Positions 43,430-58,330 of a stretch of 58,330 bases of DNA are shown here, one piece after another. Origin of the DNA: Acidimicrobiaceae bacterium (GTDB taxonomy: Bacteria > Actinomycetota > Acidimicrobiia > Acidimicrobiales > MedAcidi-G1). Below the pieces are notes generated by a model, which had not been told where the DNA came from, did not search any database, and saw only the letters and a program-made list of their open reading frames with translations. A program made the translations under genes and the position numbers. Location of the stretch: positions 25,450 to 83,779 of the forward strand of contig PBDJ01000032.1 in NCBI GenBank assembly GCA_002717365.1, in the 5' to 3' direction. Within the stretch, counting starts at the first letter, position 1, and each line of letters opens with the position of its first letter.

Positions 43430-44227
43430 TCAGCCGACTAGGCCCTGGATAAGGGCGCTGACCTCAGGGCCACAGTCGCTGAGGTCCCCGTCGGCGATAC
43501 AAGGCTGGCCCAGTAACTGGGCCACCAGTTGTGCACCCAAATTCCCAAACATTCCCACCGTCGTGCTCGGCGGCGAAACGGTGGTCGCCGGAACAACCGT
43601 GGTCGTCGTGGTCACCGGAACAACCGTGGTCGTCGTGGTCGCCGGAACAACCGTGGTCGTCGTGGTCGCCGGAACAACCGTGGTCGTCGTGGTGGCCGGA
43701 GTGGTGGTGGTCGGGACAACCGTGGTGCCCGGAACAACCGTGGTCGTCGTGGTGGCCGGAGCGGCGGTGGTGGGAGGTGCCGGAACGCCTTCGACCGAGA
43801 GCCCTCGGGACTCGTTCTCGGCCAGGTGTGCCTCTCGGGTGGCCGGCCCGTACCAGCCGTCGGCTGACACACCCAGCACCTCCTGGAGCAGGACGGTGTC
43901 CACGCTCGGCCCCCAGGCGTAGGGCGCTGTTAGCACCGCCAGTTCATCCACCGGGGCCGCCGTGGTGGTGGTTGTAGCGGCAACGGTGGTGGTGGCGGCA
44001 ACGGGAACGGTGGTGGTCGTGGACGGTGCCGCCGTCGTAGTGGTCGTAGTTGCCGGGACGGTTCCCGCCGACGTCTCTGCGAGAACCGGTACAACGGTCG
44101 TCGCCGGAGATACCGAAACGGGGTACAGGACGGGCCTCACCGAGGGTTCGGCCACGCGCGCCGCGATGATCACGACCACGCCGATGACACCAAGGGTCAT
44201 TAGAGCATTGAGGATCCGGCGAACCAC
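43430..44227 (-). CDS. Thr-rich repeat surface protein with peptidoglycan-binding-like segment
   Basis: 265 residues. N-terminal membrane anchor (about 4-25), then Thr/Ala/Pro-rich linker (55-92), a 45-residue folded segment (VDTVLLQEVLGVSADGWYGPATREAHL) resembling a PG_binding_1 repeat, then a second Thr-rich tract of about nine VPATTTTTV-type nonamers (150-225) and a short Cys-containing C-terminus (GQPCIADGDLSDCGPEV). Predicted extracytoplasmic; Thr-rich tracts are likely glycosylation substrates. GTG start. Divergent from the PLP gene with a 155-base gap. Function unknown. Confidence 0.8.
   Translation of the reverse strand: MVRRILNALMTLGVIGVVVIIAARVAEPSVRPVLYPVSVSPATTVVPVLAETSAGTVPATTTTTTAAPSTTTTVPVAATTTVAATTTTTAAPVDELAVLTAPYAWGPSVDTVLLQEVLGVSADGWYGPATREAHLAENESRGLSVEGVPAPPTTAAPATTTTTVVPGTTVVPTTTTPATTTTTVVPATTTTTVVPATTTTTVVPVTTTTTVVPATTVSPPSTTVGMFGNLGAQLVAQLLGQPCIADGDLSDCGPEVSALIQGLVG
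43574..43768. repeat. Minisatellite of 27-bp units in the Thr-rich gene
   Basis: Unit gtcgccggaacaaccgtggt plus cgtcgtg recurs in near-identical tandem copies, encoding VPATTTTTV. Several units are identical at DNA level, others differ by single changes (VPVTTTTTV, TPATTTTTV, VPGTTV). Units are in frame, so expansion or contraction alters stalk length. Confidence 0.88.
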
Positions 44228-44382: not shown

Positions 44383-45945
<1,563 letters not shown>

Positions 45946-45967
45946 CCGGCCGGATCCGACGAGGCCG

Positions 45968-47197
45968 ATGGACGAGACGGCGACCGGTGGACGAGACCGT
46001 TCCATTGGCCTGCTAGGCCGGCCACCGGGTGCCCGGTGGCCGGATCCGGAGGCGGAGGCCGACCCCAACCCCTTCATAACCTTCCGCTCGCTGCTCTGGT
46101 CGCACCATACGTCCCTAGCCGCCGGCTGGACCGACAACCGGTTCGTAGACGAAGTCAAGCGACTGGACGACGCGGTGGGCGAGGTAGACGGACGGAGCTT
46201 CCGCACCACTCCGCTCCACTGCCTTGACGACCTGGCGGCGGCCATCGGCCAGGACGGTGGCCTCTGGGCCAAAGACGAGACGGGGGCCGTATCAGGCAGC
46301 CACAAGGCCCGCCACCTCTTCGGCCTGGCCCTCCACCTAGCCGTCGACGGCGTTCCCGTCGACACCCCACTGGCCATCTCGTCTTGTGGCAACGCAGCAC
46401 TAGGCGCCGCGGTAGTGGCCCGAGCCGCCGGCCGACCTCTCGTCGTCCATGTGCCCGCCTGGGCCAACCCAGTGGTGCTGGACCGCCTCTCCGACCTAGG
46501 AGCCGACGTCCGGACCTGTAAGCGGCGTGACGGCGAGTCCGGTGACCCTTGCATCTCGCGGTTCCGGGAACTGGTCTCCGAGGGAGCTCTCGCCTTCGGA
46601 TGCCAGGGGACCGACAACCTCCTGACCCTGGACGGTGGTCGAACCCTGGGCTTCGAACTGGCTGTCGCCTGGTCGGGATCCGAGCCAACACCCGATCGCC
46701 TGTTCGTACAGGTGGGGGGCGGTGCGCTGGCCAGCAGCACAGCCCAGGCCCTGGACGACGCGGTGGCCCTAGGTGGCCTGAAACGCCGGCCCCCGCTGAT
46801 CGCCGTCCAGGCAGCTGGGTGTGCACCGCTGGCCCGGGCCTTCAACCTGGTGTCCGAAGCGGCCGATCCCATGGCCGCCCTAGCTGATCCCGAGGGTGCC
46901 GCAATGTGGGCGTGGGACAACCCCTCGTCGGCAGCTACCGCGATACTGGACGACGTGGCCTATGACTGGCGATCCGTGGTGTACGACATGCTCCTCGGGA
47001 CCGTCCCCGGAGGTCCGGTGGTGGCCCCGGAAGAAGACGTGTTGGAGGCCTGCCGCCTAGTCTCCACCCACTCCCCGATCTCGGCCGACGCCACCGGTAC
47101 AGCCGGCCTGGCCGGGCTGCTAGCCGCCCGGCGGGATGGGTGCATCGGTGCCAGTGAAGTTGCCGCCGTCCTCCTGACCGGTGTCGAACGGAGCTGA
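45968..47197 (+). CDS. PLP-dependent threonine-synthase/diaminopropionate-lyase-like enzyme
   Basis: 409 residues from the ATG at 45968. RTTPLHCLDDLAAAIG then LWAKDETGAVSGSHKARH places the PLP Lys at about 113. SSCGNAALGAAVVARAAGRP is the SxGN loop, and VQVGGGALASSTAQAL the phosphate-binding glycine loop. Closest in general style to threonine synthase or diaminopropionate ammonia-lyase; the exact reaction cannot be told. Pairs with the preceding PLP enzyme in one operon and ends convergently against the nucleoside permease gene. Confidence 0.82.
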   Translation: MDETATGGRDRSIGLLGRPPGARWPDPEAEADPNPFITFRSLLWSHHTSLAAGWTDNRFVDEVKRLDDAVGEVDGRSFRTTPLHCLDDLAAAIGQDGGLWAKDETGAVSGSHKARHLFGLALHLAVDGVPVDTPLAISSCGNAALGAAVVARAAGRPLVVHVPAWANPVVLDRLSDLGADVRTCKRRDGESGDPCISRFRELVSEGALAFGCQGTDNLLTLDGGRTLGFELAVAWSGSEPTPDRLFVQVGGGALASSTAQALDDAVALGGLKRRPPLIAVQAAGCAPLARAFNLVSEAADPMAALADPEGAAMWAWDNPSSAATAILDDVAYDWRSVVYDMLLGTVPGGPVVAPEEDVLEACRLVSTHSPISADATGTAGLAGLLAARRDGCIGASEVAAVLLTGVERS

Positions 47198-47231: not shown

Positions 47232-48164
47232 TCAGCGTTCCTCGCGTCGGTAGGCAATGCCTAGAGCCGCCGGAGCCGGCGACGGCCGGTTCCGGGCCCG
47301 GATCGAGATGGCCACCAACACGCCCACCGTCAACAGGTACGGGAGCATGGACAGCAGGATCGGTGAGAAGTCCACGCCGAAAGTCTGGAGGCGGGTCTTC
47401 AGCGCCAACGTCATGCCGAAGAGAAGTGAGCCGAGGGCCACCCTTCCCGGCCGCCAAGCGCCGAAGATCACGAGGGCCACGGCGATCCATCCTCGACCAG
47501 CCACAATGCCCTCAGCCCACTGTGGGGTGAGGGACAGTGTCAGGTATGCCCCTGCTGCTCCGGCCAGGGCACCCCCCATGGCAACTGCCCCGAGACGCAG
47601 GCCAGCCACCGAGTGCCCGGCGGCGTCTGCGGTAGAAGCTGACTCGCCGGCCGCCCGTAGAGCGAGACCCAACCGGGTCCGGCCAAGCACAAACCAGGCC
47701 ACCACCCCAGCCACCACGGCGAGGTAGACGAACGGAGACTGCTGGAACAACACCGGTCCGAACCATGGGATATCGGAGAGTGGCCCCCAGTCCACAGAAG
47801 ACAGTTCGGCCCCCGCCGGTCGGCCGACAGAGCCTTTCCCGAGATAGGCAGCAAGGCCGATGCCCAGGATGGTCAGCGACAGGCCCGACACCACCTGATC
47901 GGCTCCCATCACCACGGTGAACAGGCCGTGTAGGAGGGCCACGGCCGCACCGGCGGCCACCGCCCCGGCCAGAGCCACCCAGGGATTCCCCGTGTGGAGG
48001 GCGACCACGAACCCGGTGACGGCACCCATAGCCATCATCCCCTCGACTCCGAGGTTCAGGATTCCGGCCTTCTCGGCGATCATCTCTCCCAGGGCAGCCA
48101 GATACAACAGGGCGCCGAAGGACACCGTGGCCTCCAGAAGGCCGATAACCGACGCCTCGGTCAC
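47232..48164 (-). CDS. ABC transporter permease, BMP/nucleoside type (NupQ/YufQ-like)
   Basis: 310 residues, about 8-9 membrane helices. GLLEATVSFGALLYLAALGEMIAEKAGILNLGVEGMM is the hallmark start of this permease type (seen as EKAGILNLGVEGMMAMGAV); G-x-R-AAGE-S in LALRAAGESASTADAAG and GAGGAYLTLS-like AAGAYLTLSLTPQW follow. I chose the GTG at 48164; the frame extends upstream through the neighbouring permease gene. Last gene of the ABC set, 16 bases after the other permease. Transports purine/pyrimidine nucleosides in characterised relatives. Confidence 0.92.
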   Translation of the reverse strand: MTEASVIGLLEATVSFGALLYLAALGEMIAEKAGILNLGVEGMMAMGAVTGFVVALHTGNPWVALAGAVAAGAAVALLHGLFTVVMGADQVVSGLSLTILGIGLAAYLGKGSVGRPAGAELSSVDWGPLSDIPWFGPVLFQQSPFVYLAVVAGVVAWFVLGRTRLGLALRAAGESASTADAAGHSVAGLRLGAVAMGGALAGAAGAYLTLSLTPQWAEGIVAGRGWIAVALVIFGAWRPGRVALGSLLFGMTLALKTRLQTFGVDFSPILLSMLPYLLTVGVLVAISIRARNRPSPAPAALGIAYRREER

Positions 48165-48180
48165 GAGCCAGGCTCCCGGA

Positions 48181-49257
48181 TCATGCGGCAGCCTCCGCGG
48201 CGTCACCGGACACCATCTCCACCCGATACCGGCTAAATACGCCTGCTGCGATAGCCCCAAAGAGGATGAGAGCCTGCAGGATGGTCGAGACCGAGGAGGA
48301 CACCCCCATGGTCTGGATGCTCTGGCCTCCGATCTGAACCGCGCCGAACAGCAGTGCCACCGCGGCGACTCCCGACGGCCGCATAAGAGCCAGGGCGGCC
48401 ACAATGATCCCCGCGAAGCCAAATCCGTTAGAGAGCCCCTCGGTGATCCGATCGGAGGCCCCGGTCAACTCCACGCCGCCTGCGAGGCCGGCAACGCCAC
48501 CGGACACCACTAAGACGGTCAGGATCTTGCGCTGAAGGGAAATACCGGCATAGCGGGCCGTGGCCCCCGAAGATCCGGCCACCCGGAGTTCGTAGCCCCA
48601 TGCCGTCCTGCTCGCTGCCAGCCCAAACAGTGCGATAACCACGCCAGCCAGCACCACGCCCACATGGGCCCGCTCGAACAGGTTCGGCAACCGACCCTGT
48701 TCAGGAAGCATCGGGGCCAGGGGAAAGCCGTGGGAGTCCGGGTCCTTCCACCGACCGTGGATTAGCCACTGGACTAGCCGTAGCGCTACCTCATTGAGCA
48801 TCAGCGTGGTGATGATCTCGTTGACACCAATCCGCGCCCTTGCCACCGCAGGCCCCAGCGCCAAGAGCCCGCCACCCACTACGGCAGCAGCGAGCATGGC
48901 CGGCACCAGGACCGGTCCCGGCCAGCCCTCGCCGATCCGGGCCACCCATGTCGCACCGATGGCACCGGCCATGATCTGGCCCTCGGCACCGATGTTCCAG
49001 AGGCCCATCGAGCCGGCTACAGCCACCGCCAAACCGGCCAGACCCAACGGCACGGCACGGTTCAGGGTCACGGACCAAGCTCGAGAGCTTCCCAGAGAAG
49101 CATCGAACATTCGCTCGTAGACCCGCATCGGATCATGTCCGGACCCCATGAGCAGGACGACGCCCACGACGAGGGCCACGAGGAGGCCGACCCCGAAGGC
49201 CAGGGGCTGACCACCCCGAAGCACCTGGTCTCGTCGGGCCAGTACCGGACGGCTCAT
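48181..49257 (-). CDS. ABC transporter permease, BMP/nucleoside type (NupP/YufP-like)
   Basis: 358 residues with about 9-10 membrane helices. AVPLGLAGLAVAVAGSMGLWNIGAEGQIMAGAIGA is the family signature (WNIGAEGQ), with GVNEIITTLMLNEVA and YELRVAGSSGATARYAGIS (AxGxxxxAAxYAGI) further on. Pairs with the smaller permease to form the heteromeric pore. The ATG overlaps the ATPase gene's stop (ATGA). Confidence 0.93.
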   Translation of the reverse strand: MSRPVLARRDQVLRGGQPLAFGVGLLVALVVGVVLLMGSGHDPMRVYERMFDASLGSSRAWSVTLNRAVPLGLAGLAVAVAGSMGLWNIGAEGQIMAGAIGATWVARIGEGWPGPVLVPAMLAAAVVGGGLLALGPAVARARIGVNEIITTLMLNEVALRLVQWLIHGRWKDPDSHGFPLAPMLPEQGRLPNLFERAHVGVVLAGVVIALFGLAASRTAWGYELRVAGSSGATARYAGISLQRKILTVLVVSGGVAGLAGGVELTGASDRITEGLSNGFGFAGIIVAALALMRPSGVAAVALLFGAVQIGGQSIQTMGVSSSVSTILQALILFGAIAAGVFSRYRVEMVSGDAAEAAA

Positions 49258-50816
49258 GTCACGACTCCCGTCGAAGCATGCCCAACCATCGCCTCTCCGA
49301 TGGTATGGCGTCGGGCGCTCTCCGGGTCGAACTCGGCCACCACCCGGCCGTCGTGCATCACCAGCAGACGGTCGGCCAGCATCAGGAGTTCGTCGAGGTC
49401 CTCGGAGATCAGCAGGACAGCGACACCGGCTCCCCGTTCAGCCACCAGGAGGTCCTGGATCGCCTTGACACCCTGGACGTCAAGACCCCGGGTCGGCTGG
49501 GCCGCAACCACGACTTGAGGGTGATCACTCAACTCGCGCCCAACCAGCAGCCGTTGCAGGTTCCCACCCGACAATCCGGCGATCGGTTCGTCCAGTGGTC
49601 CGGTCCGGACGCCGAATCGGTCCACGAGGTGCTGACAGTGATTGGTCGCCGCTCCAGCATCAAGAAACGGGCCTTTTCGGTGCGACGTGTAGGTCCGGAG
49701 GATGGCGTTGTCAGTGACGCTCAACCGGGGAGCCAAACCCACCCCGATGCGGTCCTCAGGGATGTAGCCCAGCCCAGCGGTGAACCGCTGACGGGGTGTA
49801 GACGTTGTGAGATCGGTTCTCCCCAGGCGTACCGAACCGCCGGTAGTCGGGCGCAGCCCGGCAATGGCCTGTGCCAGCTCGCGTTGCCCGTTTCCTGCTA
49901 CCCCGGCGATACCGACGATCTCACCGGAATACACCGTCAGGTCGACCTCATGAAGGGCAGGGAGGCCCCGATCTCCCAGACAGGACAACGCCTCTACCTC
50001 GAGCATGGGCTCGCCGACGACACACGGCGGTGGGCGTTCGTTGGCCATCGGGGCCGATCCCACCATGAGGCCAGCCAAAGTCGAGGCGTCTGTCCCATCC
50101 ACCGGTAGCGAGGCGGCGACCGTCTCACCACCACGCAGAACTGTTGCCTCGTCGCAGAAGCCGGTTACCTCGTGCAACTTGTGACTGATGAAGACCACCG
50201 TGCGACCGTCGTCGGCCATACGTCGGAGAACGCCACCCAACTCGTCGGCTTCGCCTGGCGTGAGCACTGCTGTGGGCTCGTCCAGGATGAGGATGCGAGC
50301 GTCTCGCCACAGCGCCTTGAGGATCTCGACTCGCTGGCGCTCCCCCATCGAAAGTTGCCAAACCGGTCGGACGGGATCGGTTGCTAGGCCGAATCGTTCG
50401 GCCAGATCCCCAACCGCCGATTCGATGGACTGTCGTCGGACAATCCGGTCGACAGCACCTAGCACAACATTTTCTGCCACGGTGAACGACGGCACCAGAC
50501 GAAACTCCTGGTGGACCATGCCCACCCCGGCGGCCAGGGCGTCGGCCGGTGACCGGAAGTGGCGGGCTGTACCGTCGATACGGACCTCTCCCTCGTCGGG
50601 ACGGTAGACACCGGCCAAGACGTTCATCAGGGTGGACTTTCCCGCTCCATTTTCTCCCAGAACGGCGTGCACTGTTCCGGTCAGGACGGTTAGGTGTGCC
50701 CCTGCGTTAGCTACTACGCCGGGGAATCTCTTCCATATGCCGCTCAACTCGACGGCCGGCGGTCGATGGGCCGTCGAGTTCGTCGGAGAACAACTCGTCG
50801 AATCCGTTTCGTTCAC
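49254..50816 (-). CDS. ABC transporter ATPase with two nucleotide-binding domains (NupO/YufO-like)
   Basis: 520 residues, two ABC domains. Domain 1: GENGAGKSTLMNVLAG, LSMGERQRVEILKAL, ILILDEPTAVLTP. Domain 2: GVAGNGQRELAQAIAG (degenerate Walker A usual for this type), LSGGNLQRLLVGREL, and AQPTRGLDVQGV instead of a DEPT Walker B. A GTG at 50816 has AAGGGG 5 bases upstream; a GTG six codons earlier is also open. No BmpA-type binding protein gene lies beside it. Drives uptake with the two permeases. Confidence 0.92.
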   Translation of the reverse strand: MNETDSTSCSPTNSTAHRPPAVELSGIWKRFPGVVANAGAHLTVLTGTVHAVLGENGAGKSTLMNVLAGVYRPDEGEVRIDGTARHFRSPADALAAGVGMVHQEFRLVPSFTVAENVVLGAVDRIVRRQSIESAVGDLAERFGLATDPVRPVWQLSMGERQRVEILKALWRDARILILDEPTAVLTPGEADELGGVLRRMADDGRTVVFISHKLHEVTGFCDEATVLRGGETVAASLPVDGTDASTLAGLMVGSAPMANERPPPCVVGEPMLEVEALSCLGDRGLPALHEVDLTVYSGEIVGIAGVAGNGQRELAQAIAGLRPTTGGSVRLGRTDLTTSTPRQRFTAGLGYIPEDRIGVGLAPRLSVTDNAILRTYTSHRKGPFLDAGAATNHCQHLVDRFGVRTGPLDEPIAGLSGGNLQRLLVGRELSDHPQVVVAAQPTRGLDVQGVKAIQDLLVAERGAGVAVLLISEDLDELLMLADRLLVMHDGRVVAEFDPESARRHTIGEAMVGHASTGVVT

Positions 50817-50900
50817 TTGTTCCCCTTGTTCCACCGGAGGGCGCCCGACCCTACCGGCTGGCCGGTCGTCGGGCCGGAGCCGGTGGGGTTCAAAACGGTG

Positions 50901-50928
50901 GGAGGTCGGGCCTTGCGGCCCGACCTCC
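50901..50928 (-). terminator. Perfect 12-bp hairpin between the DUF77 and ABC genes
   Basis: ggaggtcgggcc and ggcccgacctcc pair perfectly around a ttgc loop. It begins 8 bases after the DUF77 stop codon. On the minus strand it is followed by CACCGTTTTG, a weak T-run. Likely ends or attenuates the catabolic operon before the transporter genes. Confidence 0.75.
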
Positions 50929-50936
50929 TCTTGGCT

Positions 50937-51170
50937 TCAGGTCACCGTCAACTGCAGCGACACTCTGGTAGCACCGTGGTCGATAGCTGCCCGAACGACG
51001 GCGTCAACGGTCTCCAGCACCGATTCGGATTCACCGCTAACCGAAGTCCCGAAGGGCCCCACGTCGACAGCCAGGCCGGCGGCTTCGGCCACGTCGATAG
51101 CCGCCCGGACATGAGGCCCGGGTGCTCCCTCGACGAATGGTTCGATGGTGAACTCGGCGGAGATTTCCAC
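50937..51170 (-). CDS. Thiamine-binding-like protein, DUF77/MTH1187-YkoF family
   Basis: 77 residues. ISAEFTIEPFVEGAPGPHV, GLAVDVGPFGTSVSGE and GATRVSLQLTV are the family pattern of MTH1187/YqgV proteins, whose relatives bind thiamine or its precursor. GTG start at 51170, 42 bases after the deaminase stop, and a strong hairpin follows the gene. Presence in a nucleobase operon is unusual; it could bind a pyrimidine-like ligand. Confidence 0.85.
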   Translation of the reverse strand: MEISAEFTIEPFVEGAPGPHVRAAIDVAEAAGLAVDVGPFGTSVSGESESVLETVDAVVRAAIDHGATRVSLQLTVT

Positions 51171-51212
51171 GACAACATCATGGCCTATCGGGCCGGCCGT
51201 TGCGTCGGTCGC

Positions 51213-52511
51213 TCAGGCCTCCCAGAGGCGACGGGCACGCCCTGCCAGGTCACGGTGTGCCTTCGCTAGGTCGGCGCCTAACAGTAGGCCGTCAGCCACT
51301 ACCGCCCGCCCTTCAACAAAGAGGTGCCGGACCCTGCGGTCCGGCCCAAGCACGAGGGCCGTCAGCGCGTCGGCGATGTCTCCCAGGTCGTCACCCGGCC
51401 AAACGGCTAGGTCGGCTCGCATTCCGACCTGTACCGATCCCACATCGTCTAAGCCGAGACATTGGGCACCTCCGCGAGTACCCATCTCTATGGTGTCGGC
51501 CGGCATCAGAGCGTCCGGGCGGAGTTCTCGGAGCCGGGCCGTGTAGAGAGCCTGGCGCAGTTCACCGAAAAGCCCTCCCGACTCGTTGGAGGCAACACCG
51601 TCTACTCCTAGGCCCACAGGGCATCCGGCGGCCCGGAGGTCGGTGACTCGGCACATACCCGCCGCGACGCGGGCGTTGGACGAGGGGCAGTGGGCCACCC
51701 CAGTGCCGGCGGTTCCAAGCCGACCCATCTCGTCATCGTCTATGTGGATTCCGTGGGCTAGCCACACGTCGTCGCCCACCCAACCCCACTCGTCCAGCAT
51801 TTCGACTGGTCGGCGACCGAACCGTTCCAGGCAGTGTTCTTGCTCCTCGACCGTCTCACAAAGGTGGGTGTGAAGCCTTAGCCCGTGACGTCGGGCCAAC
51901 TCTGCCGATTCCACCATCAACCCCGGGGTGACCGAGAAGGGGCTGCATGGTGCCACCGTGACGTGAACCATCTCACCGTCGTGGTGGCGGGCAATGACCG
52001 ATTCGGTGGAGGCCAGGATGGCGTCTCGGTCCTCCACTACGTGGTCCGGCGGCAACCCTCCCAGGCTCTCCCCAAGGTCCATGGAGCCTCGAGAAAGGTG
52101 CAGTCGCAGGCCAACCTCGCCAGCGGCATCCACGATGGCGTCGAACACTGCGTCGTCACCACGGGGAACGAGGTAGTGGTGGTCGGACGCTGTGGTGCAA
52201 CCGGTGGCTGCCAACTCGCCGAGACCGACCAGAGCGGCAGCCCGTACATCTTCTACCGATAGCTGGCCCCACACGGGGTACAACTCGACTAGCCAGTCGA
52301 AAAGGTTGCACCCCACGGCCCGGCCGCGAGTCATCCACTGATACAGGTGGTGGTGGGTGTTCACGAGGCCTGCGGTGACCACGTCACCCTCGCACCGCAC
52401 CACTTCGTCGCCAGGTTCGGCGGGCACTGTTCCCACGGCCACGATCCGACCTTCGGCAACGGCCACGTCGCCCGGATGGCGGGCACCGCGTAGGACAAGG
52501 CGGGGGCTCAT
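51213..52511 (-). CDS. 8-oxoguanine/guanine deaminase-like amidohydrolase
   Basis: 432-residue COG0402 amidohydrolase with the complete metal site: LVNTHHHLYQWMTRG, LHTHLCETVEEQEHCLERFG, WLAHGIHIDDDEM, VAHCPSSNARVAAGM and VGLGVDGVASNESGGLF. The NTHHHLYQ start and SNxR motif match 8-oxoguanine deaminases, which yield uric acid and ammonia, better than plain guanine deaminase; exact substrate is inference. Start ATG at 52511, 28 bases after the LLM gene. Confidence 0.88.
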   Translation of the reverse strand: MSPRLVLRGARHPGDVAVAEGRIVAVGTVPAEPGDEVVRCEGDVVTAGLVNTHHHLYQWMTRGRAVGCNLFDWLVELYPVWGQLSVEDVRAAALVGLGELAATGCTTASDHHYLVPRGDDAVFDAIVDAAGEVGLRLHLSRGSMDLGESLGGLPPDHVVEDRDAILASTESVIARHHDGEMVHVTVAPCSPFSVTPGLMVESAELARRHGLRLHTHLCETVEEQEHCLERFGRRPVEMLDEWGWVGDDVWLAHGIHIDDDEMGRLGTAGTGVAHCPSSNARVAAGMCRVTDLRAAGCPVGLGVDGVASNESGGLFGELRQALYTARLRELRPDALMPADTIEMGTRGGAQCLGLDDVGSVQVGMRADLAVWPGDDLGDIADALTALVLGPDRRVRHLFVEGRAVVADGLLLGADLAKAHRDLAGRARRLWEA

Positions 52512-52539
52512 ACCGTCCAGCCTCGCGTGTCCGGCCCGG

Positions 52540-53541
52540 TCATGGCGTCCAGTCGGCGAAGACGTCGATCATCAGGCGGACGTCGGGCCCCAACGGGTAA
52601 AGGATCGGACAGGTGCACCCGTCGGCCATGTACTGGGCCACCTTCTCCCGGACCTCATCGGCCGTGCCCGCGGCACAGATCATCTGCACGACCTCGTCTG
52701 GAACCAATTTCGACGCAGCCTCGACCTGTTCGTGGGTTGCCGGCCAGGTCAGCGCTCGTCCGATTTCCTCGAGGAGGGACTCAGGCACACCGGAGGCCTT
52801 CATGATGTGGGGTTGCTGGCCTAGGTACTGGGTGACCATGAGACGGGCTCCGTCTAGAGCCTCGGCTCGATTTTCGGCCACCGAGCAGACCACCAGTTGC
52901 GGTCGGTCCAGGTCATCCACCGACCGACCGGCCCGGGCCGCACCGTCAGCCAGGCGGTCCATGGCCCGCCGGTTGTACTCCGGGGACACCAGGTAGTTCA
53001 GAACTACCCCGTCGGCAATCTCACCGGTCAACTCCAGCATTCGGTCGCCGGTAGCCCCGATGTAAATCGGGACGTCCTTAGGCCGACGCTCCTGATACAC
53101 GTAGTCCAGTTCGACCCCGTCGAGGTGCACAAACTCGCCGTCATAGGTCACCGTCTCGTCGGCCAGCAGGGCACGACAGGCCTCGACGGTCTCTCTCATG
53201 GCCTTCAGCGACCGGTGCCGATTCACACCGACCTTGGTGGCCAACGGCTCCCACCAGGCCCCGATGCCCAAGATGATCCGGCCGGGCGCCAGGTCGTCGA
53301 GCGTCGAGAACGTGGAGGCCAGCCGGGCCGGGTTGCGGGTCCAGCAGTCGACGACACCAGAGCCGATCCTGATGGTCTCGGTACAAGTGGCGAAGGCGGC
53401 CATGGGAACCACGGCGTCACGAACTAGACGGGAATCAGCCTGCCAGACCGCCTCGAAGCCACGCTCTTCGGCGTACTGGACGTAGCCGACGGCATCGGGG
53501 ATCGAATGGGCGTCTTGCAGGTAGATGGCCAAACGGGTCAT
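52540..53541 (-). CDS. LLM-class (F420-dependent-type) oxidoreductase
   Basis: 333 residues, luciferase-like TIM barrel. Seen: [66 protein letters not shown] (pieces [15 protein letters not shown] and [13 protein letters not shown]), [31 protein letters not shown]. The motif set is that of F420-dependent methylene-tetrahydromethanopterin reductase-like enzymes of actinobacteria rather than RutA. Reaction unknown; inside the nucleobase operon it could carry out a ring reduction or oxidation. ATG 12 bases after the SsnA-like stop. Confidence 0.88.
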
Positions 53542-53553
53542 AGAGGGCTCCTC

Positions 53554-54603
53554 TCAGCCGTCCTCAAGGCGATAGTGAAGACGGGCAGCCTCCTCGGCAG
53601 CCCGGGCCCGGACCTCGTCGGCATCAACCAGGGTGGGCCGGCCGTCGGCCAGGACTACCCGACCATCGACCTCTACGGTCCGGGGTCCGACGTTGGTAGT
53701 AAAGGCCAGCCTCCATGGGTCCATATCGGTGTATGTCCAGGTCACCCGGTCGGCTACCGCTTCGGGGAATAGGTCCCAACCGGTAGCCAGCCAGCCCCAG
53801 GCCACCTCAGGCGAGGCCGTCACGTCGTCTTCGCGGTGACGCGCGTAGGCCACTCGGAACTCGTCGAGCATGTCGGCCCCAATCCCATCACTGCCCAAGG
53901 CCACCGGATTGGCGAACCGGATGGGTCGGGCGTAGCCGACGGCATTGTTCATGTTGGATCGAGCATTGTGGACGATGGTCCCAGCCAGACCGTGGTCGTC
54001 GGGAAGGTGTACCCCGTGGACCAAAAGCCAGTCGTCGGTAGCTAGGTGTCTTAGCCGATCGGCCGCTCCGGCGTCTACCGGGCCCTCGGCCACATGCACG
54101 TGGACACCCACACCCCGATCGGCGGCTAGGCCGGCCGCCGCCTCCAGGCTCTCGTCAGAGCAGGTGAACCCGGCGTGCACACCGACCATGCCCCGTCCGC
54201 CCTCTTGAAGGAACCGCTCGTTTTCAGCCAGCCCGCGCCGGGCCCCATCGGCACCGTGGCGGTCGGTGATCCCGTAGGCGCAGGACACCCGTACCCCCAC
54301 CTCGGCACACGCCTCGGCGATGATCGACAGCGAGCCGTCGATGGCGTTAGGGGACTCGTGGTGGTCGATGATCGCTGTGCAGCCGCGTTCGAGGGCCTCC
54401 ACGGCGCCCAACATGGCCGACCACCGGATCGACTGGTCGTCTAGTGCCCGGTCGAGTCGCCACCACACCAGCTCTAGGATCTCGGTGAACCCGGTTGGTG
54501 TCCGGGGCGGGGTTGGCATACCACGAGCCAGCGCCGAGTAGAGGTGGTGGTGCGCGCAGACCAAGCCCGGGGTCTGGTTAGCGGTTAAAGCGGCGGTAGC
54601 CAC
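53554..54603 (-). CDS. SsnA-like aminohydrolase with missing N-terminal segment
   Basis: 349 residues from the GTG at 54603, 4 bases after the xanthine dehydrogenase stop. Metal site present: LVCAHHHLYSALARGMP, IIDHHESPNAIDGSLS, VGVHAGFTCSDESL, VGVHVHVAEG, LVHGVHLP, HNARSNMNNAVG, ALGSDGIGADMLDEF. These resemble SsnA/COG0402. The roughly 45-60-residue N-terminal beta-sandwich part that other members have before the HxH motif is absent; only about 15 residues precede it, though its C-terminal partner strands remain. The frame runs further upstream but inside the neighbouring gene. Activity uncertain. Confidence 0.8.
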   Translation of the reverse strand: MATAALTANQTPGLVCAHHHLYSALARGMPTPPRTPTGFTEILELVWWRLDRALDDQSIRWSAMLGAVEALERGCTAIIDHHESPNAIDGSLSIIAEACAEVGVRVSCAYGITDRHGADGARRGLAENERFLQEGGRGMVGVHAGFTCSDESLEAAAGLAADRGVGVHVHVAEGPVDAGAADRLRHLATDDWLLVHGVHLPDDHGLAGTIVHNARSNMNNAVGYARPIRFANPVALGSDGIGADMLDEFRVAYARHREDDVTASPEVAWGWLATGWDLFPEAVADRVTWTYTDMDPWRLAFTTNVGPRTVEVDGRVVLADGRPTLVDADEVRARAAEEAARLHYRLEDG

Positions 54604-54607
54604 AGGA

Positions 54608-57187
54608 TCAACGTCCGTCCCAGGCGGCCCAGTGGTCCTCCTGGTCCGGATCGGCCATGGGAAGGCTGTGACGCCAACCGCCGTCGTGGGCATGCAGAGC
54701 GGCGGCCACTGCACCGGCCGTCGGCACTAAGCCGATCTCTCCCACCCCCTTGATGCCGTAGGGCGAGTCGGGCTGGGGTGACTCGATCAGCCGAACGTCG
54801 ACTGCCGGCATGTCCTTAGGTCGGATGATGCCGAGGCTTCGTAGAGTCTCGTTACGGGGACGGGCGTCAGTGTCGGTCGGGAAGCCCTCGGTCAAGGCGT
54901 AGCCAAGGCCCATGTGGACCGCCCCCTCAACCTGACCCTCGCACATCAGGGGGTTGACGGCTCTGCCCACGTCGTGGGCGGCCACCACACGGTCCACCAG
55001 GCCGGTCTCCGGGTCCAGAACCACCATCTGGGCCGCGTAGCCGAAGGTGGAGTGGATGATGGGATTCTCCAGGCCGTCGTTCAGCGAGTTGGTCCAGTCC
55101 ACCCGGTACTCGCCCTCGTAGTCCACCTCCGGACGACAGCCGTCGGCCAAGGCATTGCGGCAGGCGTCGGCCACCGAGCCAGCGCCCATCAAGGTGCCCC
55201 GGCTGCCAGTGGTCTGGCCGGCACCCAGTTCACGGGTGGTGTCCACGATGACGTCCACGGTCTCCGGGTCAACGCCCAGTTCTTCGACGGCTACCTGCAG
55301 GGCGACTGTGTGTACGCCCTGGCCCATCTCGGTCCAGCAGTGTCGAACCTCCACCCGGCCGTCCCCGGTAAACCGAATGACGGCCCGGGCGACCTCCTTG
55401 AAGCCGTTGCCCAGGCCCGAGTTCTTTAGTCCGAGGCCTAGGCCGACCGGTCGGCCGTCGGCTACCGCCTCGTCATATGCGGCCTTCACCTCGTCCAGAC
55501 AGGCCCGGGCGCCTAGGCAGCCGTCGTCCATGACCTGGCCGGGACCCCAGATGGCGCCTGGGGTCACGACGTTGCGGCTCCGGATCTCCCATCCCGAAAT
55601 CCCAACCTGCTCGGCTAGGCGATCCATGACTCCTTCCATGGCGAACTGGGCTTGGTTGGCTCCGAATCCCCGGAACGCTCCGCCAACCGGGTTGTTGGTG
55701 CGGACTGCCGTGGACTCCACGTCGATGGTGGGCAGAACGTAGGGGCCGCTGGCGTGGCCGGCGGCCCGTTCCAACACCTTCATACCCACCGACGCGTAGG
55801 GCCCTGAGTCGCCGATCATTCGGGCCCACAGTCCGGTCAGTCTTCCGTCGGCGTCGCAACCCGCCCGGTAAGCCATCCGGATGGGGTGGCGCTTGGGGTG
55901 CATAAGGAGCGACTCTTCGCGGGAAAGCGTGCACCGGACTGGGCGTTTCAGTAGCCAGGCGGCCAACGCCGTGTGGGCCTGGTTGCACATGTCCTCCTTG
56001 CCTCCGAACGCCCCGCCGTTGGATACCAACTCGACGGTGATGCGCCCGGTGTCGATTCCCAGAACCGAGGCGACCTGGTTACGGTCATCCCACACCCCCT
56101 GACCACCCGAATACATGTGAAGCCCGTCGTCGGTGGGCACAGCCAGAGTCGACTCGGGTTCCACAAAGGCGTGCTCGATGCGCTGGGTCTGGAAGATCTC
56201 CTCGACCACGTGGGCCGAGCCAGCCAGGGCCGCTTCTACGTCGCCCCGGGAGTAGGTGGAGACGGACAGCACGTTGCCGTCCAATTCCCACACAGCGTCC
56301 TCGTCGGCCTGCAGGGCCACTACGGGGTCGCTGTAGACGGTCAGAGGAATCTGCTCGACGACCACCAGGGCGGCGGCTTTCCGAGCTGTCTCGCGGTCGT
56401 CGGCTACCACCACGGCCAGCACATCTCCCAGGTAGGAGGTGCGTCCCCCCTCGGGGATCATGACCGGCCAGTCGGTGTGGATGATGCCTACCCGGAGAGC
56501 GCCTGGGATGTCCGCTGCGGTGAGAACGCGGTGAACTCCTTCGACCTTCTCGGCGGCCGCAGTGTCGATACGTACTATGTCGGCCCGGGCGTGGTCGGCC
56601 AGGCGTAGGGCTGCGTGCAGCAAGCCGTCGGGGGCTAGGTCATCGATAAACGGTCGGTCGCCAAGACTTAACTCGCTCGCCTCGACCTTCACGCCACGGG
56701 ACCCCACGCCACCCTGAGGTAGAGGTACAGGGGTTTCTCCTGAGGCCAGAGACTCCACGGCATCCAGGATCTTCACGTAGCCGGTGCAGCGGCACAGATG
56801 GCCACCCAGGTGCCGGGCCGCCTCGTCGCGGGTCAGCGCCTCACCCTTCCTGTCGATCAGTGCCTTGGCCCGCATGACGATTCCCGGGGTGCAGAAGCCG
56901 CACTGCAAGGCCCCGTGGGCGGCGAAGGCCGTGGCGTACTGCTGTCGCTCCTCGTCCGTCAGCCCCTCAACGGTGGTGACGGCCACCCCCTCAACTCTCT
57001 CCATGGACGTCTGGCAGGCCACGCGGGCCTTTCCGTCCAGCAGGACAGTGCAGCAGCCGCATTGCCCGGACGGCGCGCAGCCATCCTTGGGCGAGGTCAC
57101 TCGTAGCTCGTCGCGGAGGGCGGCCAGTAGGTGCGGGTGGCCGGCGGATGCCTCAACCGTCCGGCCGTTCAGGTCGAAGGTGGTCAC
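54608..57187 (-). CDS. Xanthine dehydrogenase-family fused 2Fe-2S/molybdopterin subunit (XdhD-like)
   Basis: 859 residues. N-terminal plant-type ferredoxin: GCAPSGQCGCCTVLLDGK, then the helical 2Fe-2S domain with LQCGFCTPGIVM and HLCRCTGYVKI (all eight Cys). After a linker (about 155-170) the molybdopterin domain: NGGAFGGKEDM, GGAFRGFGANQAQFAME, TEMGQGVHTVALQVA and the active-site Glu in GIKGVGEIGLVPTAGAV. Fusion without an FAD subunit resembles E. coli XdhD. Hydroxylates a purine or related N-heterocycle. ATG overlaps the amidase stop (ATGA). No FAD-binding partner gene is in the window. Confidence 0.93.
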   Translation of the reverse strand: MTTFDLNGRTVEASAGHPHLLAALRDELRVTSPKDGCAPSGQCGCCTVLLDGKARVACQTSMERVEGVAVTTVEGLTDEERQQYATAFAAHGALQCGFCTPGIVMRAKALIDRKGEALTRDEAARHLGGHLCRCTGYVKILDAVESLASGETPVPLPQGGVGSRGVKVEASELSLGDRPFIDDLAPDGLLHAALRLADHARADIVRIDTAAAEKVEGVHRVLTAADIPGALRVGIIHTDWPVMIPEGGRTSYLGDVLAVVVADDRETARKAAALVVVEQIPLTVYSDPVVALQADEDAVWELDGNVLSVSTYSRGDVEAALAGSAHVVEEIFQTQRIEHAFVEPESTLAVPTDDGLHMYSGGQGVWDDRNQVASVLGIDTGRITVELVSNGGAFGGKEDMCNQAHTALAAWLLKRPVRCTLSREESLLMHPKRHPIRMAYRAGCDADGRLTGLWARMIGDSGPYASVGMKVLERAAGHASGPYVLPTIDVESTAVRTNNPVGGAFRGFGANQAQFAMEGVMDRLAEQVGISGWEIRSRNVVTPGAIWGPGQVMDDGCLGARACLDEVKAAYDEAVADGRPVGLGLGLKNSGLGNGFKEVARAVIRFTGDGRVEVRHCWTEMGQGVHTVALQVAVEELGVDPETVDVIVDTTRELGAGQTTGSRGTLMGAGSVADACRNALADGCRPEVDYEGEYRVDWTNSLNDGLENPIIHSTFGYAAQMVVLDPETGLVDRVVAAHDVGRAVNPLMCEGQVEGAVHMGLGYALTEGFPTDTDARPRNETLRSLGIIRPKDMPAVDVRLIESPQPDSPYGIKGVGEIGLVPTAGAVAAALHAHDGGWRHSLPMADPDQEDHWAAWDGR

Positions 57188-58170
57188 AGGTACTCCTCCC
57201 CGGTGTCGTTGGACGCTTCGGACTCCCCTGCTCGGCCCTCCCGGATCCCTTCGGGAACCAACGGCCCCCGCTGTCCGGTGATGGCGCCGTATACCTCGGG
57301 GCGCCGGTAGCGCTCAAAGTCGAACAGGGTCTCCTTGTAGTCGGCACACAAGTCCAAGTCGACGCGGGCCACGGCAAGCTCGTCGCCCTCGGTCGTGCAG
57401 GTGGCATGGACCTCACCTGATGGGCCGATGATGGCGCTCTCACCCAGTAGGGCACAGCCCTCTTCCTCTCCAGCCTTGGCTACGCCGACCACCCACATGC
57501 CGTTCTGGTATGCGCCCGATTGGAGCACCAGGCGGTTGTGGAAGCCCTGGAGTCGATCCTGGTCCGGATCGGGGGCGTAGTGGATCGGCGTGTTGTAGCC
57601 GATTAGGGCTAATTCGCAACCCTGAAGGCCAAGGACCCGGTAGGTCTCGGGCCAACGCCGGTCATTGCAGATGGCCATGCCGACTACTCCGCCGAAGGCA
57701 CCGTGGACAGCGAAACCGTCTCCGGGCTCGAAGTAGTAGCGCTCCAGGTGCTGGAAGGCCCGCCATGGCTCGTGGTCCTCGTGGCCTGGAAGGTGCACCT
57801 TGCGATACCGGCCGACGATGGTGCCATCCCGCTCGACCAGGATCGCCGTGTTGTACCGGTGACCGTCCGGGGTTAGTTCGGCGTACCCCAAATGGAAACC
57901 CACGCCCAACTGCTTGGCCTTGTCGAACAGGGGGCGGGTCTCGGGACCGGGCATCTCGGTCTCGTAGAAGTGGTCGGCCTCGGACAGGTCGTCGACCCAC
58001 CATCGGGGAAAGAACGTGGTCAGAGCCAGTTCCGGGAACACCACTAGGTCGCAGCCAGCGTCGGCACCACTGTGGAGCAGGGCCAGGAGCCGCTCCACCA
58101 CCTCTGGTCGGGTGTCGGAACGCTGGATGGGGCCCATCTGCGCTGCACCAACGGTCACGAAGCGACTCAC
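57184..58170 (-). CDS. N-carbamoyl-D-amino-acid hydrolase-like nitrilase-family amidase
   Basis: 328 residues. Very close motif match to N-carbamoyl-D-amino-acid amidohydrolase: VVFPELALTTFFPRWW (catalytic Glu), FYETEMPGPETRPLF, GFHLGYAEL, RYRKVHLPGHEDHEPWRAF (Lys), HLERYYFEPGD and MAICNDRRWPETYRVLG (Cys). Hydrolyses the carbamoyl group to amine, CO2 and ammonia. The extra 25-residue C-terminal tail is acidic. GTG at 58170 overlaps the M20 gene's stop (GTGA). In this operon the substrate may be a carbamoyl intermediate of ring opening. Confidence 0.93.
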   Translation of the reverse strand: MSRFVTVGAAQMGPIQRSDTRPEVVERLLALLHSGADAGCDLVVFPELALTTFFPRWWVDDLSEADHFYETEMPGPETRPLFDKAKQLGVGFHLGYAELTPDGHRYNTAILVERDGTIVGRYRKVHLPGHEDHEPWRAFQHLERYYFEPGDGFAVHGAFGGVVGMAICNDRRWPETYRVLGLQGCELALIGYNTPIHYAPDPDQDRLQGFHNRLVLQSGAYQNGMWVVGVAKAGEEEGCALLGESAIIGPSGEVHATCTTEGDELAVARVDLDLCADYKETLFDFERYRRPEVYGAITGQRGPLVPEGIREGRAGESEASNDTGEEYL

Positions 58171-58330
58171 GCTGTGACTCCCGATCCGGGTTCCGCCAGG
58201 TCGGAGGCATCCAAGGCCAGCAGGGTTCGCATGAGCACGTTGGCCCCGGCCACCAGGTGTTCGGGGTCGGTGTGCTCGGCCGGGTTGTGGCTGATGCCGT
58301 CGCGGCTGGGCACGAAGACCATGCCGGTCG
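58167..58330 (-). CDS. M20-family ureide/carbamoyl amidohydrolase, C-terminus only
   Basis: I translated the frame that enters from the right edge. The last 53 residues include GMVFVPSRDGISHNPAEHT and EHLVAGANVLMRTLLALD, which is the C-terminal signature (MIFVPSxxGxSHxxxE) of the M20 Zn-dependent hydrolases: allantoate amidohydrolase, N-carbamoyl-L-amino-acid hydrolase and beta-ureidopropionase. Which one cannot be decided from this fragment. Its stop overlaps the start of the nitrilase-family gene, so it is the upstream operon member. Confidence 0.85.
   Translation of the reverse strand, partial: TGMVFVPSRDGISHNPAEHTDPEHLVAGANVLMRTLLALDASDLAEPGSGVTA

Follow-up and report, generated by a model that had tools for sequence, protein, structure and literature searches.

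A purine catabolic operon of Acidimicrobiia that probably encodes an F420-type variant of reductive uric acid degradation

Which compound is degraded by a bacterial operon in which homologues of the molybdenum enzyme XdhD and the aminohydrolase SsnA stand next to an oxidoreductase of F420 type? This question is raised by the right end of contig C15 of an Acidimicrobiaceae bacterium (genome of 1.87 Mb, 78% complete), from which a stretch of 58,330 nucleotides, here called the window, was analysed. A first-pass annotation had read the genes between positions 47,232 and 58,330 as the window's best candidate for an undescribed pathway, a nucleobase or ureide operon that recalls the ygf/ssnA/xdhD cluster of Escherichia coli, with an enzyme of the luciferase-like monooxygenase (LLM) family reducing or oxidising the ring in place of YgfK. 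A reductive uric acid pathway, described chiefly in gut bacteria that grow without oxygen, was reported in 2025 by Li et al. for E. coli, Clostridioides difficile, Enterococcus and others, and its reactions were established with the E. coli and C. difficile enzymes (PMC12507026). According to the same paper, Chloroflexota lack YgfK/UacX and have in its place a putative F420 enzyme of the luciferase family (PMC12507026). The pathway and the F420 LLM proposal for Chloroflexota are therefore already known, and the pathway is not undescribed. New here are the occurrence in Acidimicrobiia and haloarchaea, the evidence for an exchange of LLM and YgfK, and an N-carbamoyl-D-amino-acid hydrolase (D-carbamoylase) in the place of YgeW/UacY; no report of the LLM variant in either group turned up in the open-licence literature searched, although for Acidimicrobiia and urate this negative carries little weight. 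From gene content and comparison, we consider it likely that the operon is responsible for an F420 variant of reductive uric acid degradation, with the LLM acting as F420H2-dependent yanthine reductase.

The argument is carried by three adjacent genes on the minus strand of the window: xdhD (54608..57187), encoding a fused 2Fe-2S/Mo hydroxylase and proposed urate-to-yanthine reductase, a short form of ssnA (53554..54603, with a probable GTG start at 54603), and the LLM gene (52540..53541; PF00296), whose product would take the role of YgfK/UacX. A single draw of 296 genomes from the class to which the window belongs was searched with XdhD, YgfK (TIGR03315), LLM, SsnA and hydantoinase. XdhD was found in 112 and SsnA in 122 genomes, both together in 111, and the 123 genomes with either of them are referred to as the core. 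Within the core, 49 genomes contain LLM only, 65 the N-terminal domain of YgfK only, four contain both and five neither (G186, G237, G284, G302, G313), and among the 173 non-core genomes LLM occurs in one (G297) and YgfK in none. For these counts LLM rows of at least 512 bits were used and three rows at 380-383 bits (G286, G284, G090) were dropped, which reduced the LLM genomes from 55 to 54. YgfK rows were kept by eye among the matches listed (to about 245 bits) when they covered the N-terminal domain and scored 291 bits or more, and rows covering the C-terminal part only, probably glutamate-synthase-like, were dropped, as were second XdhD fragments in G166 and G182; SsnA and XdhD duplicates were counted once per genome. 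The Fisher value for the exclusivity of LLM and YgfK is 8e-23, a figure that ignores relatedness.

LLM and YgfK moreover occupy the same slot. The order XdhD-SsnA-LLM was observed in G079, G083, G114, G129, G193, G224, G250, G264, G279, G326 and G332, the order XdhD-SsnA-YgfK in G120, G161, G172, G228, G246 and G291, and in the remaining stretches XdhD, SsnA and LLM or YgfK lie apart or are cut. In G052 and G053 YgfK is located between the M20 hydrolase and the D-carbamoylase, with SsnA on a separate contig in G053. The D-carbamoylase accompanies YgfK in some sister clusters as well. The YgfK of G053 (L040:13456-15300; about 615 residues, 432 bits to TIGR03315) has 4Fe-4S motifs and the N-terminal domain, whereas the C-terminal portion of the model has no counterpart in it. 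In the operons on contigs of the window's own family YgfK was not found, the one TIGR03315 match in the window's genome (G000; E=3.4e-52) being far weaker than the N-domain rows; UacX was not part of this search. When LLM and YgfK are placed on a quick tree of 132 XdhD rows, six changes are needed, so that at least six switches took place, one of them between congeneric species (G042 and G210); this tree lacks 8 of the 112 survey genomes, which were not fetched, as well as G182, leaves rows with both or neither enzyme uncounted, and includes 29 rows from outside the draw that were labelled only from the available stretch. Both the likeness to the E. coli cluster and the predicted ring reduction by an LLM replacing YgfK receive comparative support from this class-wide co-occurrence, from the exchange in a shared slot, and from the negative searches for enzymes of the oxidative route in 61 genomes that are described below.

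By sequence and fold, the LLM is closest to the F420-binding members of its family. Its best NCBIfam matches are Mer models, below their cut-offs (196 versus 276 and 180 versus 349 bits), and its best solved relatives are six sequences of the F420-dependent Mer (141 bits), followed by FGD1. In a fold search with its AlphaFold model (mean pLDDT 77, 14 sequences in the alignment) the predicted structure likewise resembles Mer first (TM about 0.82), with Mer, Adf and FGD leading. Mer is thus the closest solved relative, from which the LLM differs by its purine pathway context and by its scores below the Mer cut-offs. CofH, an enzyme of F420 synthesis, is over its cut-off in 53 of 61 related genomes. 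A scan of named genomes confirmed at least 587 relatives of the LLM, and the best 80 of these carry titles of Acidimicrobiia, Actinomycetota or bacterial metagenome-assembled genomes (MAGs), with a few odd labels and some from ocean or lake. MAG records titled Bifidobacterium breve (L210, L231, L233) contain an LLM that is 72-74% identical to the query and are probably mislabelled.

The two partner enzymes were assigned by homology. XdhD reaches 818.3 bits to TIGR03311, just under the cut-off of 830.45, and only 162 bits to TIGR03313, the subfamily of E. coli XdhD; the XdhD-like label given at first pass has to be corrected accordingly, to a Mo enzyme of TIGR03311 type. Its best plasmid-borne relatives, from Enterococcus faecalis (41%) and Collinsella (37%), annotated as selenium-dependent xanthine dehydrogenase, sit with ygfK and, between the two, also with ssnA, hydA, dpaL, ygeY and ygeW. 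SsnA shows 34% identity to its E. coli counterpart (E=3e-57); the metal ligands are common to both, as are two signature stretches, WWRLDRALD and HNARSNMNN. To TIGR03314 it scores 237 bits, far under the cut-off of 455.

According to the reading frames of the window and Pfam/NCBIfam profiles, the genes from M20 to DUF77 as well as an ATP-binding cassette (ABC) ATPase and two permeases are all encoded on the minus strand. Their order of transcription is M20 end, amidase, 2Fe-2S/Mo hydroxylase, SsnA-like enzyme, LLM, 8-oxoguanine-deaminase-like enzyme, DUF77 protein, ABC ATPase and the two permeases. With the SsnA start taken as GTG 54603, the spacings from M20 to DUF77 are -4, -4, +4, +12, +28 and +42 bases, which confirms the same-strand gene set with gaps and overlaps of 4-42 bases noted before. 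Of the M20 hydrolase (hydantoinase/carbamoylase family), only the C-terminal 53 codons (58167..58328) are present, the remainder lying beyond the contig end; the amidase of N-carbamoyl-D-amino-acid hydrolase type (57184..58170; PF00795, 174 bits) is the proposed 2-ureido hydrolase in the role of YgeW/UacY. The 8-oxoguanine deaminase-like aminohydrolase (51213..52511; NF006055, 547.8 bits with a cut-off of 532) is the proposed urate supplier, and a small DUF77/Thiamine_BP protein follows (50937..51170; PF01910, 41.4 bits). The importer consists of the ATPase (49254..50834; PF00005), permease 1 (48181..49257; PF02653) and permease 2 (47232..48164, the start being approximate and judged from relatives; PF02653), and its nucleoside (BMP) type is judged by the neighbours in relatives. 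The BmpA gene itself is not in the window, where only about 100 bases separate DUF77 and the ABC ATPase (50835-50936). The extent first given to the operon, from M20 to the permeases, stands and has to be enlarged by two plus-strand genes of the PALP family just outside it. These are the convergent PALP2 (45902..47197; PF00291, 128.7 bits), a pyridoxal-phosphate (PLP)-dependent enzyme and candidate 2,3-diaminopropionate lyase, and PALP1 (44383..45945; PF00291, 45 bits), a divergent PLP-dependent enzyme. Beside the PALP genes, the minus strand contains a reading frame with long Thr/Val/Pro-rich repeats (43430-44227).

The complete operon can be seen in relatives, whose stretches were mapped by tblastn with the operon's proteins. 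A three-subunit xanthine dehydrogenase (XDH) is located upstream of M20, and the full order is XDH FAD (flavin adenine dinucleotide), XDH 2Fe-2S and XDH Mo subunits, M20, D-carbamoylase, XdhD, SsnA, LLM, 8-oxoguanine deaminase, DUF77, usually BmpA, ABC ATPase, two permeases, and the convergent PALP2 and PALP1. Within 12 kb of XdhD/SsnA on same-family contigs, LLM was found in 31/31, M20, D-carbamoylase, XDH Mo and deaminase each in 29/31, DUF77 in 20/31 and PALP1 in 12/31, some genes being cut off by contig ends or stretch limits. In relative G007, the Mo subunit of XDH belongs to the PucD type (842 bits, cut-off 784). In relatives the ABC ATPase follows a gene with PF02608 Bmp (167.6 bits). 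Of the 16 same-family contigs on which DUF77 and the ABC gene are both visible, 13 have a full BmpA between them; G032 has none, G024 a fragment, and G005 is without BmpA, ABC ATPase and permease 1. DUF77 also occurs within 12 kb of XdhD/SsnA in 10 of 46 other-family contigs, in LLM and YgfK clusters alike, and we know of no role for DUF77 (Thiamine_BP) genes beside XdhD/SsnA. Several relatives carry a second cluster on the opposite strand where the importer would be expected, for example L065/L028 (G021:C42:24001-41000), in which LLM enzymes, aminohydrolases resembling SsnA, a Mo hydroxylase fused to a 2Fe-2S domain, an ABC importer and a gene similar to creatininase were named by eye.

For the hydrolysis of the opened ring, the operon offers two candidate ureido hydrolases. 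The amidase has N-carbamoyl-D-amino-acid hydrolases as its best solved relatives (387 bits, residues 1-302 aligned), the next-best group being N-carbamoylputrescine hydrolase (77 bits), and differs from them in its substrate, which here would be 2,3-diureidopropionate. Glu47, Lys124 and Cys168 are found at the expected places of what we take to be the catalytic triad. YgeW/UacY is not encoded in the operon, where the D-carbamoylase stands instead, and the remaining genome was not searched for these proteins. The full-length M20 of G007 (L023:6895-8199) scores 395.8 bits to TIGR01879, with a cut-off of 204. A hydantoinase is encoded in the window's genome outside the operon (G000 contig C7; TIGR02033, 547 bits, cut-off 393), and across the class 103 of the 123 core genomes have a hydantoinase over its cut-off, compared with 24 of the 173 others. 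In G079, G083 and G114 it lies about 1.1 kb beyond LLM. In G182, hydantoinase, M20, D-carbamoylase, PALP1, PALP2, XdhD, SsnA, LLM, deaminase and XDH genes are all encoded within 16 kb, M20, PALP1, XdhD and XDH FAD each being split in two pieces. Of 208 class genomes, 61 contain PALP1, and every one of these belongs to the core set.

A search of plasmids with the LLM returned 22 records, all haloarchaeal by genus, with less than 60% identity (best 57.6%). Four of them were opened, from Haloarcula hispanica, Haladaptatus halobius, Natrinema caseinilyticum and Haloarcula marismortui (L294, L296, L298, L299), and by annotation all four contain a 2Fe-2S and Mo gene pair, a Zn hydrolase, a D-aminoacylase, LLM, thrC and two amidohydrolases. 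A BMP importer is also annotated on both Haloarcula plasmids, and npdG, an NADPH-dependent F420 reductase, in the Haladaptatus cluster. For two of the four records, BLAST comparisons were made against the proteins of the window and of the E. coli cluster. Within this set, the nearest protein to the Mo gene is E. coli XdhD in both records (34-35%). One amidohydrolase is nearest to E. coli HyuA (29-32%), its companion to E. coli SsnA (27-28%), and the Zn hydrolase has 41-42% identity to the M20 of the window set. UacY is described as a D-aminoacylase homologue in the accessible text of PMC12507026, and for this reason the haloarchaeal LLM seems to go with a known kind of 2-ureido hydrolase, likened by annotation, whereas the LLM of Acidimicrobiia seems to go with a D-carbamoylase instead. 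The compact haloarchaeal gene set of LLM type looks uricolytic.

Taken as a pathway, XDH would convert xanthine to urate. The product of 8-oxoguanine deaminase is urate, and this enzyme would therefore feed the same route. XdhD would remove the 6-oxygen of urate to yield yanthine (2,8-dioxopurine), provided that it works in this direction, and the LLM would reduce yanthine to its dihydro form, presumably with F420H2. SsnA would then open the ring to ureidomethyl-hydantoin, and the hydantoinase encoded elsewhere is the candidate for conversion to 2,3-diureidopropionate. The D-carbamoylase would next take off the 2-ureido group, if this order and the D-configuration apply, M20 the 3-ureido group, and a PALP enzyme could finally convert 2,3-diaminopropionate to pyruvate and ammonia. 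XdhD may take its electrons from the neighbouring XDH, a guess made because both are encoded in the same operon. If electrons from xanthine oxidation are passed to urate reduction, xanthine would in effect be isomerised to yanthine without an outside reductant. A joint reading that combines oxygen-tolerant reductive uricolysis in aerobic plankton and haloarchaea, the F420H2-dependent LLM, the flow of XDH electrons to urate reduction and a D-carbamoylase that attacks the 2-ureido group first, with D-albizziin as product, is tentative and possible rather than probable.

With the cluster of Li et al., this proposal shares an XdhD homologue, SsnA, M20 and PALP enzymes of the same Pfam families and a candidate hydantoinase (elsewhere, or nearby in some genomes), the net reductive logic, and the use of YgfK in the LLM slot by sister lineages. 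It differs by LLM for YgfK/UacX and D-carbamoylase for YgeW/UacY, by M20 and PALP enzymes of other subfamilies, by an operon that additionally comprises XDH, 8-oxoguanine deaminase, DUF77 and an importer of BMP type, and by cytochrome oxidase subunit I, which was found in 56 of 61 relatives (E<=1e-100; 51 over the cut-off). The Chloroflexota clusters, compared by description only, equally have a PF00296 gene beside ssnA as proposed yanthine reductase; the passages of PMC12507026 name Chloroflexota only, whereas the present work covers Acidimicrobiia and haloarchaea, with tests of slot and co-occurrence.

Several observations weigh against a reductive F420 pathway, and some of them concern XdhD. 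The enzyme retains the Glu and Arg of ordinary xanthine dehydrogenases in 132 of 132 aligned rows, residues to which we ascribe the active-site role of classical xanthine dehydrogenases, and it is without the Glu606 of E. coli XdhD, for which reasons it might oxidise instead of reduce. Glu606 is the residue put forward for E. coli XdhD by Li et al. (PMC12507026); as a marker it was dropped, since it lacks conservation and falls in different columns in different alignments (D in the comparison with the E. coli protein, P in 131 of 132 rows). XdhD could accordingly be a second hydroxylating xanthine or purine dehydrogenase and the LLM a flavin mononucleotide (FMN)-dependent monooxygenase opening the purine ring, similar to RutA with uracil. 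The retained Glu and Arg, the name xanthine dehydrogenase of the best XdhD model, the cytochrome oxidase of the relatives and an LLM fold that includes monooxygenases fit this explanation, yet we regard it as unlikely, given that the nearest sequence and fold relatives of the LLM are F420-dependent reductases, that an F420 reductase gene is found in the Haladaptatus cluster, and that the LLM and YgfK replace each other, the E. coli homologue of YgfK being an enzyme of reductive dearomatisation (PMC12507026). The reductive reading, in turn, has to account for the lack of a detectable CofH in the window's own, 78% complete genome and for four genomes that contain both LLM and YgfK (G132, G146, G180, G274), in which YgfK is near SsnA and LLM is not. 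LLM is also less tightly tied to XdhD/SsnA than YgfK: it lies within 12 kb of them in 42/54 cases versus 65/69 for YgfK, and within 1.5 kb of SsnA in 33/53 versus 62/69. Moreover, the genome count treats related genomes as independent, and a tree-based pair test with five supported pairs (seven on all branches), of which three to four show opposite directions and almost none the same, agrees in direction with the exclusivity but is not significant (p 0.125-0.625), as too few independent pairs exist for it to reach significance.

The downstream enzymes add further points against reductive uricolysis. M20 gives no BLAST match to YgeY and PALP1 none to YgeX, PALP2 matches YgeX weakly (E=7e-5), all within the same Pfam families, and the haloarchaeal thrC matches PALP2/YgeX weakly in one record and not at all in the other. 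PALP1 is not universal: of the 78 core genomes numbered up to G255, 17 show no PALP1 row, and since G022, G024 and G053, which have PALP1 by tblastn mapping, were evidently outside the PALP1 draw, at most 14 are true misses. Hydantoinase is found within 12 kb of same-family operons on 0/31 contigs, and in G000 it sits in what by eye appears to be a pyrimidine cluster. Read by eye, this cluster (L113:5692-12071) consists of a nitrilase, an aminotransferase, a dihydropyrimidinase, a semialdehyde dehydrogenase and a further LLM enzyme; the latter might stand in for PydA in pyrimidine breakdown. SsnA and XdhD homologues could also have been recruited to a different substrate, so that the operon would degrade 8-oxoguanine or another N-heterocycle, as the deaminase score over the 8-oxoguanine cut-off, the nucleoside-type importer and the low TIGR03314 score of SsnA suggest; this is quite improbable, however, because such a deaminase feeds urate into the same route and is near XdhD/SsnA in only 5 of 46 other-family contigs inspected, although XdhD and SsnA occur together across the class. 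An ordinary oxidative ureide operon, with M20 as allantoate amidohydrolase, the amidase as ureido hydrolase and a urate oxidase elsewhere, finds support in the score of the G007 M20 to an allantoate amidohydrolase subfamily model (414.4 bits, cut-off 399), but is very improbable and was rejected as uricase and 2-oxo-4-hydroxy-4-carboxy-5-ureidoimidazoline (OHCU) decarboxylase were each found in 0/61 genomes with positive controls; urate oxidases of HpxO and PuuD type were not searched. The earlier remark that no uricase or dihydropyrimidinase is visible holds for uricase in these 61 genomes, but a dihydropyrimidinase/hydantoinase is encoded elsewhere in the window's genome.

If reductive uric acid degradation by the F420 variant is confirmed, purine nitrogen would be recycled reductively more widely than in gut bacteria, namely in Acidimicrobiia, which mostly possess cytochrome oxidase, and in cultured haloarchaea, which carry the genes on plasmids, and dearomatisation of a purine would be a new reaction for F420. 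The cultured Haloarcula hispanica carries the compact version, which makes the idea testable in a cultured organism. The D-carbamoylase bears on which ureido group leaves first and with which configuration, a point that is called open in the accessible part of a commentary (PMC12990295), and if the joint reading holds, this enzyme would settle the order and stereochemistry of ureido cleavage.

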